Below, piece by piece: positions 51,003 to 57,515 of a stretch of DNA of 64,000 nucleotides. The first letter of the stretch is position 1. The number at the start of each line of letters is the position of its first letter. Source of the DNA: Chryseobacterium artocarpi (lineage in GTDB: Bacteria > Bacteroidota > Bacteroidia > Flavobacteriales > Weeksellaceae); assembly GCF_001684975.1 (NCBI RefSeq), contig NZ_MAYH01000012.1, positions 558,001-622,000 of the forward strand, read 5' to 3'. A model generated the notes under the pieces. The model had not been told where the DNA came from and made no database searches. It saw nothing but the letters and a program-made list of their open reading frames with translations. The position numbers were made by a program, and so were the translations under genes.

Positions 51003-51464
51003 TTATTCCAGATCAATTTTAAACTTGGTAGATTTTTTAACCTCATGGAGAACGATAGAGCTGTGGTATTGTCCAATATTGGGAAGATTTGAAATTACAC
51101 TCACAGCAAAGTCATTATAAGAATTAATATCTTTTGCGATAATTTTCAACATATAATCATATTCTCCGGAAAGACTGATGATTTCCTGTACCTCGTCATA
51201 TTTTATAATGTTCTTCTCGAAGGTTTCCAATACTTTCTTGGATTGTTCTTTAAGTCGGACATTACAGTAAACGACAATATTTAAACCCAACTTTTCACGG
51301 TTTAAGAGACCCACGTACTTTTCAATGATTCCCTGTTTCTCCAATTGTTTGATTCTTTCGTACGTTGGAGTAAAGGTAAGACCTATCTTTTCTGAAATTT
51401 CTTTAACAGATAAAGTAGAGTCTTCCTGTATGATGCTGAGAATCATTTTGTCTTTTAAATCCAT
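51003..51464 (-). CDS. Lrp/AsnC-family transcriptional regulator
   Basis: 153 residues. HTH at about 18-45 (LSVKEISEKIGLTFTPTYERIK QLE) and a RAM/AsnC ligand domain from about 65 (VVYCNVRLKEQSKKVLETFE, EIISLSGEYDYMLKIIAKD). These proteins sense amino acids as dimers or octamers. Divergent from pyrB and next to the arg operon, so arginine or branched-chain control is possible, but nothing in the sequence names the ligand. A -7-like TATTTTTG (minus strand, 51485-51492) lies 20 bp upstream of its start. Confidence 0.92.
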   Translation of the reverse strand: MDLKDKMILSIIQEDSTLSVKEISEKIGLTFTPTYERIKQLEKQGIIEKYVGLLNREKLGLNIVVYCNVRLKEQSKKVLETFEKNIIKYDEVQEIISLSGEYDYMLKIIAKDINSYNDFAVSVISNLPNIGQYHSSIVLHEVKKSTKFKIDLE

Positions 51465-51549: not shown

Positions 51550-51580
51550 TTTGTAGGTTCATAAAATTGTTGTATCTTTG
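51550..51580 (+). promoter_or_regulatory. Promoter of the pyrB leader
   Basis: TTTG (51550-51553) and TATCTTTG (51573-51580) with a 19-bp gap, a very good match to the Bacteroidota -33/-7 pattern. The transcript would start near 51586. Confidence 0.75.
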
Positions 51581-51586
51581 CACTTA

Positions 51587-51658
51587 ATGAATAAAAAAGC
51601 ATTTATATCATTAGATTTACCGGGCGAAAGCGCCCTTTACGATATTTATTGTTATTAG
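51587..51658 (+). CDS. Putative pyrB leader peptide (23 residues)
   Basis: ATG at 51587 to TAG at 51658, giving 23 residues: start MNKKAFISLDLPGESALYD, end IYCY. No gene family is implied. Why it is called: it follows a strong promoter by a few bases, contains a GGGCG-AAAG-CGCCC hairpin (51622-51635), then a U-rich stretch, and its stop codon sits on the first bases of the terminator stem at 51657. This is the geometry of the E. coli pyrBI leader, in which a ribosome close behind RNA polymerase blocks the terminator when UTP is low. Expression of the peptide is unproven. Confidence 0.65.
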   Translation: MNKKAFISLDLPGESALYDIYCY

Positions 51659-51685
51659 CGAAGATTGTTGTCTTCGCTTTTTTTA
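51657..51685 (+). terminator. Attenuator terminator ahead of pyrB
   Basis: Perfect 8-bp stem AGCGAAGA / TCTTCGCT (51657-51664, 51671-51678), loop TTGTTG, then a run of T. It ends 18 bp before the pyrB start codon and lies after the only visible promoter, so it can act only on pyrB. Confidence 0.85.
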
Positions 51686-51703
51686 TGCCCAAAAATAAGA
51701 ATT

Positions 51704-52594
51704 ATGTTTACGATTACAGAACTAAGTACCGAGAGAATCAACAGTATACTGACAGAAGCGATGGCTTTTGCAAATGGTAAAACTGCTAAAATTGAAGGAG
51801 AAGTTTTTTGCTCAAACCTTTTCTTCGAAGATAGTACAAGAACAAAAACAAGTTTTGATATTGCAGAAAGAAAATTGGGACTTCAGGTTGTTCCCTTTGA
51901 TGCTTCACACAGCTCAGTTAATAAAGGAGAGAGCCTTTATGATACAGTAAAGACCATAGAAAGTCTGGGAGTAAACTTAGTAGTGATCCGTGACAAGAAA
52001 GACCGATATTTTGAGGAATTAAAAAATATTAAGATCCCTGTGATCAACGGAGGAGACGGAACAGGTAACCACCCGTCACAATGTATGCTGGACCTGTTGA
52101 CAATCTATCAGGAGTTTGGGAAATTTGAAGGATTGAAAGTAGGAATTGTAGGAGATGTAAAACACAGCCGTGTAGCAAACTCAAATGCTGAAGCTTTAAG
52201 AAGATTAGGCGCTAAAGTATACTTCTCTGGACCTGAACAATGGTTTGATGAAGGAGCGTTAATCAACGGAACTTACCTTTCAGTGGATGAGCTGATCGCT
52301 GAAGTAGATGTTCTTATGTTATTAAGGATTCAGCACGAAAGACACGACGCAGCTATGAGTTTCTCTGCTTCGGAATATCATAAAAGATATGGTCTGACTA
52401 AAGAAAGAGAACAAGCAATGAAAAAAGAAGCAATCATCATGCACCCTGCACCAATTAACAGAGGGGTAGAAATAGATTCAGACCTTGTAGAATGCGAACG
52501 CTCAAGAGTCTTTAAACAAATGCAGAACGGTGTCTTCGCAAGAATGGCAATTTTAAAAGAAGCATTAGAAGAAAAAGGGTTTACCTTTAAATAA
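51704..52594 (+). CDS. pyrB: Aspartate carbamoyltransferase catalytic chain
   Basis: 296 residues from the ATG at 51704 ([19 protein letters not shown]). An in-frame ATG at 51665 lies in the terminator stem and is rejected. Carbamoyl-phosphate motif [59 protein letters not shown]. Catalyses the first committed step of pyrimidine synthesis. No pyrI regulatory chain or pyrR gene is in this window. Likely controlled by the attenuator upstream, and followed by carA and carB on the same strand. Confidence 0.96.
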
Positions 52595-52620
52595 AAGAGT
52601 CAAGGTAAAAGTAAAAAGGT

Positions 52621-52782
52621 ATTGTGAGCTCCGTAGGAGCGACCTGATAATAGCCAAGGGTGATACCTATGTAAAATAAAGAACATAACAATTGTGAGCC
52701 CTGTAAGGGCGACCTATTAATAACCAAGGGTGCAACCCTTGGGATATAAAAAGAAAAGCCTCTTGGAGGCACTTGTTAAAAA
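52621..52782 (+). repeat. Two full and one partial copy of the two-hairpin repeat (pyrB-carA spacer, copies C, D, E)
   Basis: Copy C (52621-52671): ATTGTGA then stem GCTCC-GTA-GGAGC, GACCTGATAATAG, CCAAGGGT. Copy D (52691-52743): ATTGTGA then GCCCT-GTA-AGGGC, GACCTATTAATAA, CCAAGGGT-GCA-ACCCTTGG. Partial E (52758-52782): GCCTC-TTG-GAGGC then ACTTGTTAA. Stem bases change together between copies. All lie in the transcribed direction. Confidence 0.85.
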
Positions 52783-52805: not shown

Positions 52806-53879
52806 ATGAAGAAAAAATTAATACTGGAGTCCGGTGAAGTGTTTCATGGAGAAGGTTTCGGAGCAGAATTGGAAACTGCAGGTGAAGTAGTTTTCAATAC
52901 CGGAATGACAGGGTATCAGGAATTGATCTCTGACCCATCATATTGCGGTCAGATAGTTTGTATGACCTATCCGCTTATCGGGAATTATGGTATTAACCGT
53001 GATGATTATGAAAGTATTGAGCCGGCAATTAAAGGGCTTATCGTAAAAGAACTTTGCGATCTTCCTTCTAACTTCCGTACTCAGATTACTTTAGATGAAT
53101 TATTTAAGAAGAAAAACCTTTCAGGAATTTCAGGAATTGATACAAGAAGACTGACAAGAATTCTTCGTAACTCCGGAGTAGTGAAAGGAAAAATTGTGAA
53201 TGCTGATGCTGATGGAGCGGCAGTTGCAACAGAATTGAAAGAAACAAACTTCCCAACTAATCAGGTGGAAGAAGTTTCTACAAAAACACCTTATGCAAAT
53301 CCAAACAGAGGCTTCAAAGTAGTATTGGTAGACTTCGGAGCAAAACTAGGAATCATCAGAGAATTATCTCAAAGAAACTGTGACATCATCGTAGTTTCTC
53401 AGGATACCACTGCAGAAGAAATCTTATTGATGAATCCAGACGGAATCATGCTTTCAAACGGTCCTGGTGACCCGGAAGATGTACCACACGCTCTAGATAT
53501 GATCCGTGGATTGCTTGGAAAAGTTCCAATCTTCGGAATCTGTTTAGGACATCAGTTAATCGGTCTTGCTTGTGGAGCAAAAACGTTTAAGCTTAAGTTC
53601 GGGCACAGAGGAGGAAACCACCCTGTATTGGATTTAGCGAAAAATACAGTAGCTATTACTTCTCAGAACCATGGATATGCAGTAGATCAGGAAAGTTTAA
53701 AAGGAACAGACCTTATCGAAACACACATCGCATTGAACGACAGAACAAACGAAGGTTTAAAACACAAAATTCACCCTTGTTTCTCAGTTCAGTATCACCC
53801 GGAAGCAAGCCCTGGTCCAGAAGATGCAAACTACTTATTTGATGAGTTTATCCAAATGATGGAAGACTTTAAGAAATAA
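52806..53879 (+). CDS. carA: Carbamoyl-phosphate synthase small subunit
   Basis: 357 residues. N-terminal CPSase domain (LESGEVFHGEGFGAE, FNTGMTGYQELISDPSY) and class I glutaminase domain from about residue 175. The catalytic triad is visible: Cys in IFGICLGHQLIGLACG, and His and Glu in SVQYHPEASPGPEDA. It makes ammonia for CarB; the product feeds both PyrB and ArgF', whose genes are on either side here. Confidence 0.96.
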   Translation: MKKKLILESGEVFHGEGFGAELETAGEVVFNTGMTGYQELISDPSYCGQIVCMTYPLIGNYGINRDDYESIEPAIKGLIVKELCDLPSNFRTQITLDELFKKKNLSGISGIDTRRLTRILRNSGVVKGKIVNADADGAAVATELKETNFPTNQVEEVSTKTPYANPNRGFKVVLVDFGAKLGIIRELSQRNCDIIVVSQDTTAEEILLMNPDGIMLSNGPGDPEDVPHALDMIRGLLGKVPIFGICLGHQLIGLACGAKTFKLKFGHRGGNHPVLDLAKNTVAITSQNHGYAVDQESLKGTDLIETHIALNDRTNEGLKHKIHPCFSVQYHPEASPGPEDANYLFDEFIQMMEDFKK

Positions 53880-53919: not shown

Positions 53920-54273
53920 ATGCATAATTTTGAAAAACTAGTTTTTTGGCAGAAATCAATAGAACTTGCAAAAAAGATTTATGTCATTTGTGTGGAGTTA
54001 CCTAAAGATGAAAAGTTTGGTTTGATTTCTCAAATTAAACGCTCTGTAATCTCTATTCCTTCAAATATAGCGGAAGGAGCGGGGAGAAATAATGATAGAG
54101 AATTTTATCATTTTCTTGGAATAGCAAATGCATCCTCTTTTGAACTACAGACACAGTTAATTTTAACTAGAGAATTGAATTTACTTGATGCAGAAAAAGT
54201 AGATAGTTTAATAGCAAATCTGAATGAAATTCAAAGAATGATTTATACATTCAAATCTAATTTAAAAAAGTAA
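53920..54273 (+). CDS. Four-helix-bundle protein (S23/IVP-like) inserted between carA and carB
   Basis: 117 residues. Family marks: an N-terminal FEKLVFWQKSIELAKKIY, the central SIPSNIAEGAGRNNDREFYHF and a C-terminal helix pair. This family is the one coded in intervening sequences of 23S rRNA genes and as scattered single genes in Bacteroidota; related Avd proteins work with diversity-generating reverse transcriptases, but no RT is here. It probably binds nucleic acid or protein as a pentamer; role unknown. It has no link to carbamoyl phosphate and appears to have entered the carA-carB spacer together with its flanking repeats. Confidence 0.92.
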   Translation: MHNFEKLVFWQKSIELAKKIYVICVELPKDEKFGLISQIKRSVISIPSNIAEGAGRNNDREFYHFLGIANASSFELQTQLILTRELNLLDAEKVDSLIANLNEIQRMIYTFKSNLKK

Positions 54274-54332: not shown

Positions 54333-57300
54333 ATGGCAAAACGTACAGATATAAAAACAATTTTAGTAATCGGTTCAGGACCTATCATTATCGGGCAGGC
54401 AGCTGAATTTGATTACGCAGGAACGCAGGCTTGTCTGTCTTTGAAAGAAGAAGGCTACAAAGTAATTTTGATCAACTCAAACCCTGCAACAATCATGACA
54501 GATGTGGAAATCGCTGATAAAGTATACATCGAACCGATTTCATTACAGTTTGTAAGCCACATCATCAGAAAAGAACGTCCGGATGCATTATTACCAACTC
54601 TTGGAGGACAAACTGGTCTTAACATGGCGGTAGAGCTTGAAAAATCAGGAATTCTTGAAGAATGCAAAGTGGAAGTATTGGGAACTAAACTTTCTGCGAT
54701 CAACAGAGCAGAAGACAGAGATCTTTTCCGTGAATTGATGAGAGAATTAAATGAGCCGGTTCCGGAATCTGATATTGTAAATACAGTAGAAGGAGCATTG
54801 GCTTTTGCTGACGAAATTGGTTATCCTGTAATTGTTCGTCCTGCCTTTACCATGGGAGGAACAGGTGGAGGTATCGCTTCCACTGAGGCAGAATTGAAAG
54901 AGATTGCTGAGCTAGGTTTGAAACACAGCCCGGTTACACAGTGTCTTATCGAGAAATCAATTGCCGGTTTCAAAGAAATTGAATACGAAGTAATGCGTGA
55001 TGCAAACGACAATGCCATTGTGGTTTGTAACATGGAAAATATCGACCCGGTTGGAGTTCACACAGGAGACTCAATCGTAGTTGCACCTTCTCAGACGCTT
55101 TCAGACAGAGAGTACCAGTTATTGAGAAACGCTTCTTTAAAAATTATCAGAGCATTAGGAATTGAAGGTGGATGTAACGTACAGTTAGCATTAGATCCAT
55201 ATTCATTCGATTACTATATCATCGAGGTAAACCCTAGAGTATCCCGTTCATCAGCGTTAGCAAGTAAGGCAACAGGATATCCGATTGCAAAGATCGCTGC
55301 AAAAATCGCAGTAGGATTAACATTAGATGAAATCATGAATCCGGTAACAGGAAAAACATACGCATGTTTCGAGCCTGCTCTGGATTATGTGGTGACTAAA
55401 TTCCCAAGATTCCCATTCGATAAATTCGAAACTGCAGACAGAAGACTTTCTACTCAGATGAAAGCAACCGGAGAAGTAATGGCAATCGGAAGAAACCTTG
55501 AGGAGTCTTTACAGAAAGCAATTCGTTCCTTAGAAACAGGAATCAAGCACTTAGGATTAAAAACAAAACAAGCTCAGGCGCTTACTGCTGAAGAAATCGA
55601 AAGAAGAATCAGAGTGTGTGATGACGAAAGATTATTCATCATCGGAGACGCTTTAAGAAGAGGATACGATTGGGAACAGATTGTAGAATGGAGCAAAATT
55701 GATAAATTCTTCATCTGGAAACTTAAAAAATTAGCTGACTTCGAAAAAGTAATCGCGGCTAACAAATTTGACAAAGAAACATTAGTCGAAGCTAAGAGAT
55801 TAGGTTTTGCAGATATTAATATCGCAGTTCTTTGGGATGTAAAAGAACGTGAAGTTTTCAATTTCAGAAAAGAAAACGGAGTGATGCCGGTTTACAAAAT
55901 GGTAGATACTTGTGCTGCTGAATTTGAAAGTGAAACGCCATACTTCTACGGAACTTACGAAGAAGAAAACGAAAGCGTAGTTTCTGATAAAGAAAAGATC
56001 ATCGTTCTAGGTTCAGGACCTATCAGAATCGGACAGGGAGTCGAATTCGACTATGCAACAGTACACTCAGTTTGGGCAATCAAAGAAATGGGGTATGAAG
56101 CGATCATCATCAACAACAACCCGGAAACAGTTTCTACAGACTTCTCAATCTCCGATAAATTATACTTCGAACCACTAACGGAAGAAGATGTAATGAACAT
56201 TATCGAGCTTGAAAAACCTAAAGGAGTAGTCGTACAGTTCGGAGGGCAAACAGCCATCAACCTTGCAGATAAATTAGCTTCTCACGGAGTACAGATTTTA
56301 GGAACTTCCCTTGAAGATCTTGACAGAGCAGAAAACAGAGATAAATTCGAGAAAGCTTTACAGGAAATGGGAATTCCTCAACCAAAAGGAAGAACTTCCA
56401 CTTCAAAAGAAGAGGCAATCAAAATTGCTAATGAAATCGGTTACCCGGTATTAGTACGTCCGAGTTACGTTCTGGGAGGTAGAGCAATGGAAATTGTATA
56501 CGCAGAAGCAGAATTGGCGCACTATATGGAGCATGCAGTAGATGCAAGCCCTGAGCACCCTGTTTTAGTAGACAAATACATGGTTGGAAAAGAAATCGAA
56601 GTAGATGCGATCTGCGACGGTGAAACAGTAGTGATTCCAGGGATTATGGAGCACATCGAAAGAGCAGGAGTTCACTCCGGAGACTCTATCGCAGTATATC
56701 CGCCACAAAATATCTCTCAGAGTGAAATCGATATTTTAGTAGACTACACAAAGAGATTGGCAAAAGGACTGAATGTAATCGGATTAATGAACATCCAGTA
56801 CGTTCTTTTTGAAGGAAATGTATATGTAATCGAGGTAAACCCACGTTCTTCAAGAACAGTTCCTTTCTTATCTAAAATCACTGAAGTTCCAATGGCTAAC
56901 CTTGCTACAAAAGCAATCTTAGGACAAAAACTGAAAGACCTTGGATATGAAAACGGATTAGTTCCAAACAAAGAAGGAGTATTTGTAAAAGTACCAGTAT
57001 TCTCTTTCTCAAAACTGACAAAAGTTGACATCTCTCTAGGACCTGAAATGAAGTCTACAGGAGAAGTAATGGGGAAAGATACCACTCTTGAAAAAGCACT
57101 TTACAAAGGATTAGTTGCAGCAGGAAGAAAAGTTCCAATGCACGGTTCTATCTTATTCACAGTAGCAGATAAGCACAAAGAAGAAGCAGCTGATCTTGCA
57201 GCAAGATTCCATGAAGTAGGTTTCAGAATCTGGGCTACAGAAGGTACAGCGAAATTCTTCGAACAAAAAGGAATTCCTTGCAAAATAGGATACAAAATAG

Positions 57301-57515
57301 GAGAAGAAAGTGTAAACCTTATCGACCTGATCCAGAAAGGAAAAGTTCAGTATGTAGTAAACACAACTACAAAAGGTAAACAAGCAGAAAGAGACGGATT
57401 CCAGATCAGAAGAATGAGTGTGGAAAACGGAGTTCCTTGTTTAACTTCAATGGATACAGTAGAAGCCATTCTAAAAGTAATCGAAAGCATGAGCTTCAAA
57501 ATGGAGATAATGTAA
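54333..57515 (+). CDS. carB: Carbamoyl-phosphate synthase large subunit
   Basis: 1060 residues with two tandem ATP-grasp halves. Each half opens with a matching motif ([20 protein letters not shown] at about residue 11; [20 protein letters not shown] at about 562) and has its own ATP-grasp core ([29 protein letters not shown]) and metal site ([40 protein letters not shown]). The last 130 residues are the MGS-like allosteric domain, where UMP and ornithine act in E. coli. Provides carbamoyl phosphate for both arginine and pyrimidines. Confidence 0.97.

Follow-up and report, generated by a model that had tools for sequence, protein, structure and literature searches.

The window, a stretch of 64,000 nucleotides of Chryseobacterium artocarpi DNA, carries pyrB, carA and carB on its + strand. 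Gene pyrB (51704..52594), encoding the catalytic subunit of aspartate carbamoyltransferase, is identified by matches above cut-off to NCBIfam NF002032 and TIGR00670, carA (52806..53879; small chain of carbamoyl-phosphate synthase) by Pfam domains PF00988 and PF00117, and carB (54333..57515; large chain) by PF02786, PF02787 and PF02142. A CarA-like ORF is also found 3' of pyrB in 6/6 Weeksellaceae loci inspected, and carA, and with it carB, is probably part of one transcription unit with pyrB. The intergenic regions have features of their own: two adjoining 70-nt direct repeats, 71% alike, lie between pyrB and carA (52608-52747), and their core, GCGACCT..CCAAGGGTG, has no further copy in the window even when three mismatches are allowed. 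Between carA and carB (53920-54273), a protein of 117 aa is encoded that belongs to the 23S rRNA-intervening-sequence type (PF05635). The 5' neighbour is a divergent minus-strand gene for an Lrp/AsnC-type regulator (51003-51464). C. ureilyticum DSM 18017 (Bacteroidota, Flavobacteriales, Weeksellaceae) shares 100% PyrB identity with the window and differs from it by a single base in the 233 nt ending with the pyrB ATG, this base being one of the six that precede the leader ATG.

Between the regulator gene and pyrB lies a compact leader region on the + strand, whose parts can be read directly in the order given by the original prediction. The promoter is composed of a -33-like TTTG element (51550..51553) and, after a spacer of 19 nt, a -7 box of the TAnnTTTG type, TATCTTTG (51573..51580), followed 6 nt downstream by the ATG (at 51587) of a leader ORF (51587..51658). 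This ORF encodes in 23 sense codons the peptide MNKKAFISLDLPGESALYDIYCY and is closed by a TAG at 51656-51658. It harbors a hairpin, GGGCG-AAAG-CGCCC (51622..51635), a candidate pause hairpin, and a U-rich tract of 21 nt (51636..51656, 13/21 U), the proposed UTP-sensitive pause region for RNA polymerase. An intrinsic terminator, the putative attenuator, follows (51657..51684), with its stem at 51657-51678 and a T6 run at 51679-51684. The stem begins at the second base of the leader TAG, in the stop codon as predicted, while its length, given earlier as 8 bp, is nine pairs by the pattern scan.

This terminator is the sole terminator-like site reported by a pattern scan of 701 bases (shuffles: mean 0.2), and the 120-nt transcript folds better than 200/200 shuffled versions (z -3.8). 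In a 37-sequence alignment, 5/9 pairs of the consensus terminator exhibit changes on both sides. No + strand gene ends there, and the 25 nt from the stem end to the pyrB ATG leave no room for a promoter; the terminator must therefore act on transcripts begun upstream and, as far as sequence allows, no promoter follows it. A start of pyrB at a TTG inside the terminator, yielding a protein of 309 aa, was rejected, as relatives match only from 51704 on. On a rival reading, the terminator would serve just to tune or insulate pyrB expression, without regulation. However, it separates the promoter from pyrB, no + strand gene has its end there, the neighbour (51003-51464) being divergent, and the places of frame and hairpin are kept across the family (see below), which makes an unregulated leader scarcely credible.

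The promoter is well conserved. A genus-level set of 81 sequences was assembled from the window and the best 80 of 151 relatives found by a contig scan, all of them Chryseobacterium except L076, a Weeksellaceae MAG. In this set (window plus best 80 of 151), every base of the TTTG element is conserved at 90% or more, and the box reads TATCTTTG in 80/81 and TACCTTTG in 1/81. Across the family, a TAnnTTTG box is present in 41/41 Weeksellaceae genomes with the leader. A sigma-70 pattern scan of the 701 bases did not report the leader promoter, as expected for a box of Bacteroidota type. The gap between box and ATG is 6 nt in 81/81 sequences of the genus set and, among 32 family representatives, 6 nt in 28, 5 in three and 7 in one; the base at -1 is a purine in 32/32 and that at -2 a pyrimidine in 31/32 of these representatives. 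In F. psychrophilum, the promoter box is placed at -12 to -5 (PMC9723704). Taken together, this box position, the box-ATG gap and the -1/-2 base pattern make it likely that the transcript begins at the A before the leader AUG (51586), or one base either side.

Within Chryseobacterium (the same 81 sequences, window and best 80 of 151), the box, the ATG, the GGGCG/CGCCC stem and the terminator with its U-run are kept in 81/81. The leader stop begins 1-4 nt before the stem in 79/81 (-1 in 72, -4 in six, -2 in one), the two exceptions, L044 and L058, having it shifted to +9 and +39. The GGGCG/CGCCC stem is invariant in all 81 while all four loop bases vary, and these account for four of the only 15 variable columns among the 63 that follow the leader ATG; in five further sequences of the genus, a stem base is changed in one (L094). 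Pairwise, amino acids differ by 18% in the leader versus 6.7% in pyrB, and synonymous codon differences amount to 1.0% versus 37.7%, the latter ranging from 13.7 to 47.4% in 28 sampled 21-codon windows of pyrB. Since leader amino acids vary more, and synonymous sites less, than those of pyrB, the genus set points to a constraint on the RNA sequence and not on the peptide. No second copy of the hairpin-tract block exists in the window's own genome with up to three mismatches.

A part of this constraint exceeds what attenuation asks for. The segment TTTATATCATTAGA(T/A)TTACC is invariant in Chryseobacterium and much of it is unpaired, an invariance that is beyond what hairpin and U-rich tract explain; a further signal, be it a ligand, a protein or a pausing signal, may thus act in this genus. 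Carried further, the leader could be, at least in Chryseobacterium, a riboswitch-like RNA binding a metabolite or a protein, its ORF being incidental. The near-invariance of synonymous and unpaired sites of 51587-51656 among the window and best 80 of 151 relatives would suit such an RNA, as would a longer stem, ATATC/GATAT, possible in some sequences, where changes are few. Yet an Rfam search of the window returned no match over the gathering score, the conserved block reaches beyond the genus only in g98 (L113, L114) among the genera aligned, the frame is kept widely, and the leader has no other segment that pairs with the arm of the terminator. We regard this explanation as very unlikely.

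The family survey covered all 26 Weeksellaceae genera with a PyrB match in a 296-genome sample, each represented by one or a few genomes, and the leader was found in 25 of them, in 41 genomes. The remaining genus, g86, was excluded from the family counts; its locus L141 exhibits none of the leader anatomy, which counts against the attenuator model. At another g86 locus, L156, a box and a terminator lie 5' of pyrB together with a long frame running through the terminator; no ATG is near the box, so that a TTG start is needed, and the locus is possibly a leadered, pyrL-like version. Among the 41 genomes, a stop at -6 to +2 of the stem is found in frame 0 in 32, in frame 1 in none and in frame 2 in one. 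An open frame as far as the stem is seen for frame 0 in 38/41, for frame 1 in 1/41 and for frame 2 in 15/41; the openness of frame 2 counts against the model, yet its stop falls at the stem in that one genome only. With one genome per genus, the stop lies at -7 to +2 of the stem in 18/25 (mean 2.8, maximum 8 over 2000 rounds of single-base shuffling) and the frame is open to the stem in 23/25 (mean 4.1, maximum 11). The leader frame is kept along with the terminator, across the genera as within Chryseobacterium, contrary to one of the outcomes that the original prediction named as refuting it.

The eight exceptions count against the model and fall on both sides. The leader stops short in 2/41 genomes, at -16 in L124 and at -11 in L127, and these stops may be within ribosome reach. 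It overruns the stem start by at least 15 nt in 6/41: L123 and L135 (+15), L126 (+16), L134 (+38), L121 (+49) and L101, whose frame is open as far as the pyrB start. Such long leaders would let the ribosome enter the terminator, by analogy with E. coli. To note, genome G205 contains a second pyrB (L157), preceded by a separate leader with this layout; this genome is listed at 2% contamination and may therefore be mixed. Seven of 33 Weeksellaceae genera gave no PyrB match in the family sample, and still none with one genome each at E <= 1e-15; they are perhaps pyrimidine auxotrophs or possess a more distant enzyme.

The hairpin is conserved in place more than in sequence. In 30/33 representatives of 25 genera, 16-26 nt separate the end of the best simple leader hairpin from the terminator, against 4.2 (sd 1.9) in shuffles, and in 22/25 with one representative per genus, against 3.5 by shuffling; L099 has no hairpin, while those of L122 and L135 are elsewhere. 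Among the 32 hairpins, 26 different stems are observed. This positional test was used because whole-leader folding energy is unremarkable: the stability of the leader alone is not unusual (z about -1.3 to -1.5), and the inner hairpin rests on place and comparison, not on energy. RNAalifold, applied to the MAFFT family alignment, recovered the terminator and not the inner hairpin, because the hairpins vary in sequence and place; this outcome counts against the attenuator model, and it argues against a simple conserved RNA as well. Concerning antiterminators, pairing between the leader and the terminator's left arm is no better than in shuffles (P<0.05 in 1/32 representatives); competing antiterminator/terminator stems of the classical trp/his type are absent.

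The third conserved element is the composition of the tract. In 32 representatives, the 18 nt immediately 5' of the stem average 56% U and 6% C, whereas the U content is 29% elsewhere in the leader and 26% in pyrB. For Phe, Tyr and Ile, codons ending in U or C are used at 94:10 in the last seven codons, 56:17 in the earlier leader and 805:430 in the pyrB genes that these leaders precede (32 representatives, L124 left out), the preference of the last seven codons over pyrB having a P of 1.4e-8. Furthermore, in 12 leaders of equal length from seven genera, the last seven codons are best conserved at their third position (0.84 vs 0.69 and 0.63), where codons 2-10 are least conserved (0.44 vs 0.60 and 0.52). 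The U-ending codons and the third-position conservation make the tract fit selection for U in the RNA and not for amino acids, while codons 2-10 carry a weak coding signal.

These figures bear on two other ways of using the same leader. An amino-acid attenuator or arrest peptide would have the ribosome stall at Tyr, Ile or Asn codons or on the nascent peptide; leaders often terminate in N-I-Y/F-x-I, and the coding signal at codons 2-10, where third positions are the least conserved between genera, goes in the same direction. Nevertheless, the peptides differ strongly between genera, as exemplified by MNLVQNLATTTIGKFADNNNIFYI and MKRTFPLDHVYIGSDAGNNNIYFI, amino acids change more than synonymous codons in the genus set (18% vs 1%, window and best 80 of 151), the tract is best conserved at third positions, and competing stems are lacking. 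The pyrimidine pathway, moreover, does not make Tyr, Ile or Asn, and stalling of this kind is highly improbable here. Alternatively, a translation-coupled attenuator might report ribosome availability or the rate of leaderless initiation (growth, stress, antibiotics) and not UTP, the tract being mere AT-rich coding sequence. The same anatomy would serve, as any coupled ribosome that halts at a stop so placed can antiterminate; however, the tract has more U and less C than its codons require, and the leader stands before a pyrimidine gene, while pyrE of the own genome is without such a leader. A sensor of ribosomes is, in our view, unlikely.

PyrR-dependent attenuation of pyr genes is of the Bacillus type. 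In 20/20 loci of other families (L111, L112, L142-L155 and L158-L161), a PyrR-like ORF of about 180 aa lies directly 5' of pyrB; one of these, P0003, matches NCBIfam NF003549, and all 20 genomes are among the P0003 matches. A search with P0003 at 1e-15 in 196 genomes of the order found PyrR in 118/167 non-Weeksellaceae genomes and in 0/29 Weeksellaceae, the own genome included, whereas PyrB is present in 28/29 Weeksellaceae and 118/167 others. A second search at 1e-10 gave 0/35 Weeksellaceae genomes from 32 genera, with control genome G002 positive. Both searches together cover 33 Weeksellaceae genera (the own genus from the first), where a very divergent PyrR could escape, and Weeksellaceae seem to lack PyrR. 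No PyrI (PF01948) was found in the own genome at 0.001, 7/14 control genomes being positive; at these cut-offs, the predicted lack of pyrR and pyrI near the locus extends to the whole genome. With no PyrR in the sampled Weeksellaceae and the leader in 25/26 genera, absence of the one and presence of the other go together at the family level. The PyrB proteins of Weeksellaceae share 38-46% identity with those of other families, and regulator and enzyme may therefore have changed together; no PyrB of Weeksellaceae type was found outside the family among 296 phylum genomes at E <= 1e-66. In the own genome, pyrE has a box, TAAATTTG, then an ordinary short leader, and no + strand terminator-like site before the gene except one far upstream. 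A pyr-wide attenuator was dropped from consideration, as pyrE, the only other gene examined, lacks such a leader.

The anatomy and its conservation, that is, promoter box, in-frame ORF, hairpin, U-rich tract and terminator, are observed directly in the sequence and by comparison. Pausing, UTP dependence, coupling and the leaderless start are what we infer from them, and on this basis the pyrB leader is quite probably a UTP-sensitive, translation-coupled attenuator that acts on pyrB, and probably on carAB as well, by gauging how far RNA polymerase is from the first ribosome translating a short leader ORF. Transcription would begin ~1 nt before the leader AUG, and the first ribosome would enter at the 5' end. 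When UTP is scarce, RNA polymerase would slow in the U-rich tract just past the hairpin; the ribosome could then close the gap and, on reaching the stop codon or its vicinity, cover the left arm of the terminator, so that transcription would continue into pyrB. When UTP is plentiful, the polymerase would run ahead, the terminator would fold and transcription would end. The sequence of the leader peptide itself would be irrelevant. Data from E. coli are compatible with such a layout: tight coupling across pyrL is described as necessary to prevent the pyrBI terminator (PMC5021804), and, as reported in PMC4824070, a reporter terminator close behind a stop codon is almost fully repressed, termination is maximal once the stop-terminator distance exceeds about 30 bp, and uncoupled translation abolishes the repression.

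The mode of ribosome entry deserves a separate assessment. A start ~1 nt before the AUG implies that the first ribosome would load on the 5' end of a leaderless RNA. The single 16S copy found in the own genome ends in CTGGAACATCTCATTTTAG, its 3' end (G000:C4:3657-3691, L166) reading CTGGAACATCTCATTTT, and lacks the CCTCC anti-Shine-Dalgarno core. This agrees with the published anti-Shine-Dalgarno loss in Chryseobacterium: PMC6107228 reports 128 organisms without CCUCCU, concentrated among Bacteroidetes in Chryseobacterium, Elizabethkingia, Riemerella and Blattabacterium, and including Mycoplasma and Carsonella. A leaderless start would suit ribosomes without this core. Against the leaderless reading, leaderless mRNAs are a minority in F. 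psychrophilum (5.5%, PMC9723704), about 3.7% of leaders are under 10 nt in B. thetaiotaomicron, and leaders exceed 10 nt in 87% in F. johnsoniae. The exact pattern TATCTTTGCNNNNAATG occurs once in the own genome, at the pyrB leader, and is so narrow that it says little on leaderless genes in general. The bolder proposal is that, in a family whose ribosomes have lost this core, 70S ribosomes load directly on the 5'-end AUG of a leaderless leader-peptide attenuator, with coupling fast enough for a ~72-nt leader to sense UTP, that this device replaced PyrR at the base of Weeksellaceae, and that it implies close transcription-translation coupling in Bacteroidota. We put it forward tentatively, with doubts slightly outweighing confidence.

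Such leaders would provide a natural, family-wide test of transcription-translation coupling in Bacteroidota, and also of a possible regulatory role for leaderless starts in organisms that have lost Shine-Dalgarno pairing. Among the open-licence literature matches listed, no report of a pyrB attenuator in Bacteroidota was found in titles and abstract openings. The nearest case within the phylum is F. psychrophilum, in which attenuators with leader peptides have also been suggested, in front of amino-acid operons (PMC9723704); the attenuator section of that paper names no pyrimidine operon, and pyrR is absent from its main text. The PyrR-dependent system, of the Bacillus type and present as pyrR-pyrB in other Flavobacteriales, shares the target gene and differs in its regulator, which was not found in the sampled Weeksellaceae genomes. 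This suggests that a polymerase-ribosome race took the place of PyrR and that it arose independently of the one in Enterobacteria.

The closest resemblance is with pyrBI/pyrL of E. coli, which shares with Weeksellaceae, before pyrB, a leader ORF, an upstream hairpin (CGTCT...AGACG in MG1655), a pyrimidine-rich tract (U-rich here) and a terminator. The dimensions differ: pyrL has 44 codons versus 23 in the window, and the hairpin-terminator spacer is 39 nt versus 21. The pyrL ATG is preceded by an SD-like GGAGG, whereas the window leader is probably leaderless, and pyrB is followed by pyrI in E. coli and by carA, without pyrI, in the window. By eye, the two leader peptides have no evident similarity. 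The logic of E. coli attenuation had been predicted for this locus, and the anatomy and the kept frame bear it out. The layouts differ, however: the pyrL stop lies past the terminator, 44 nt beyond the stem start, and not at it (-1 in the window). With the same logic in a different layout, the Weeksellaceae leader likely works like pyrBI attenuation, and its origin is assumed to be separate from that of E. coli pyrL.
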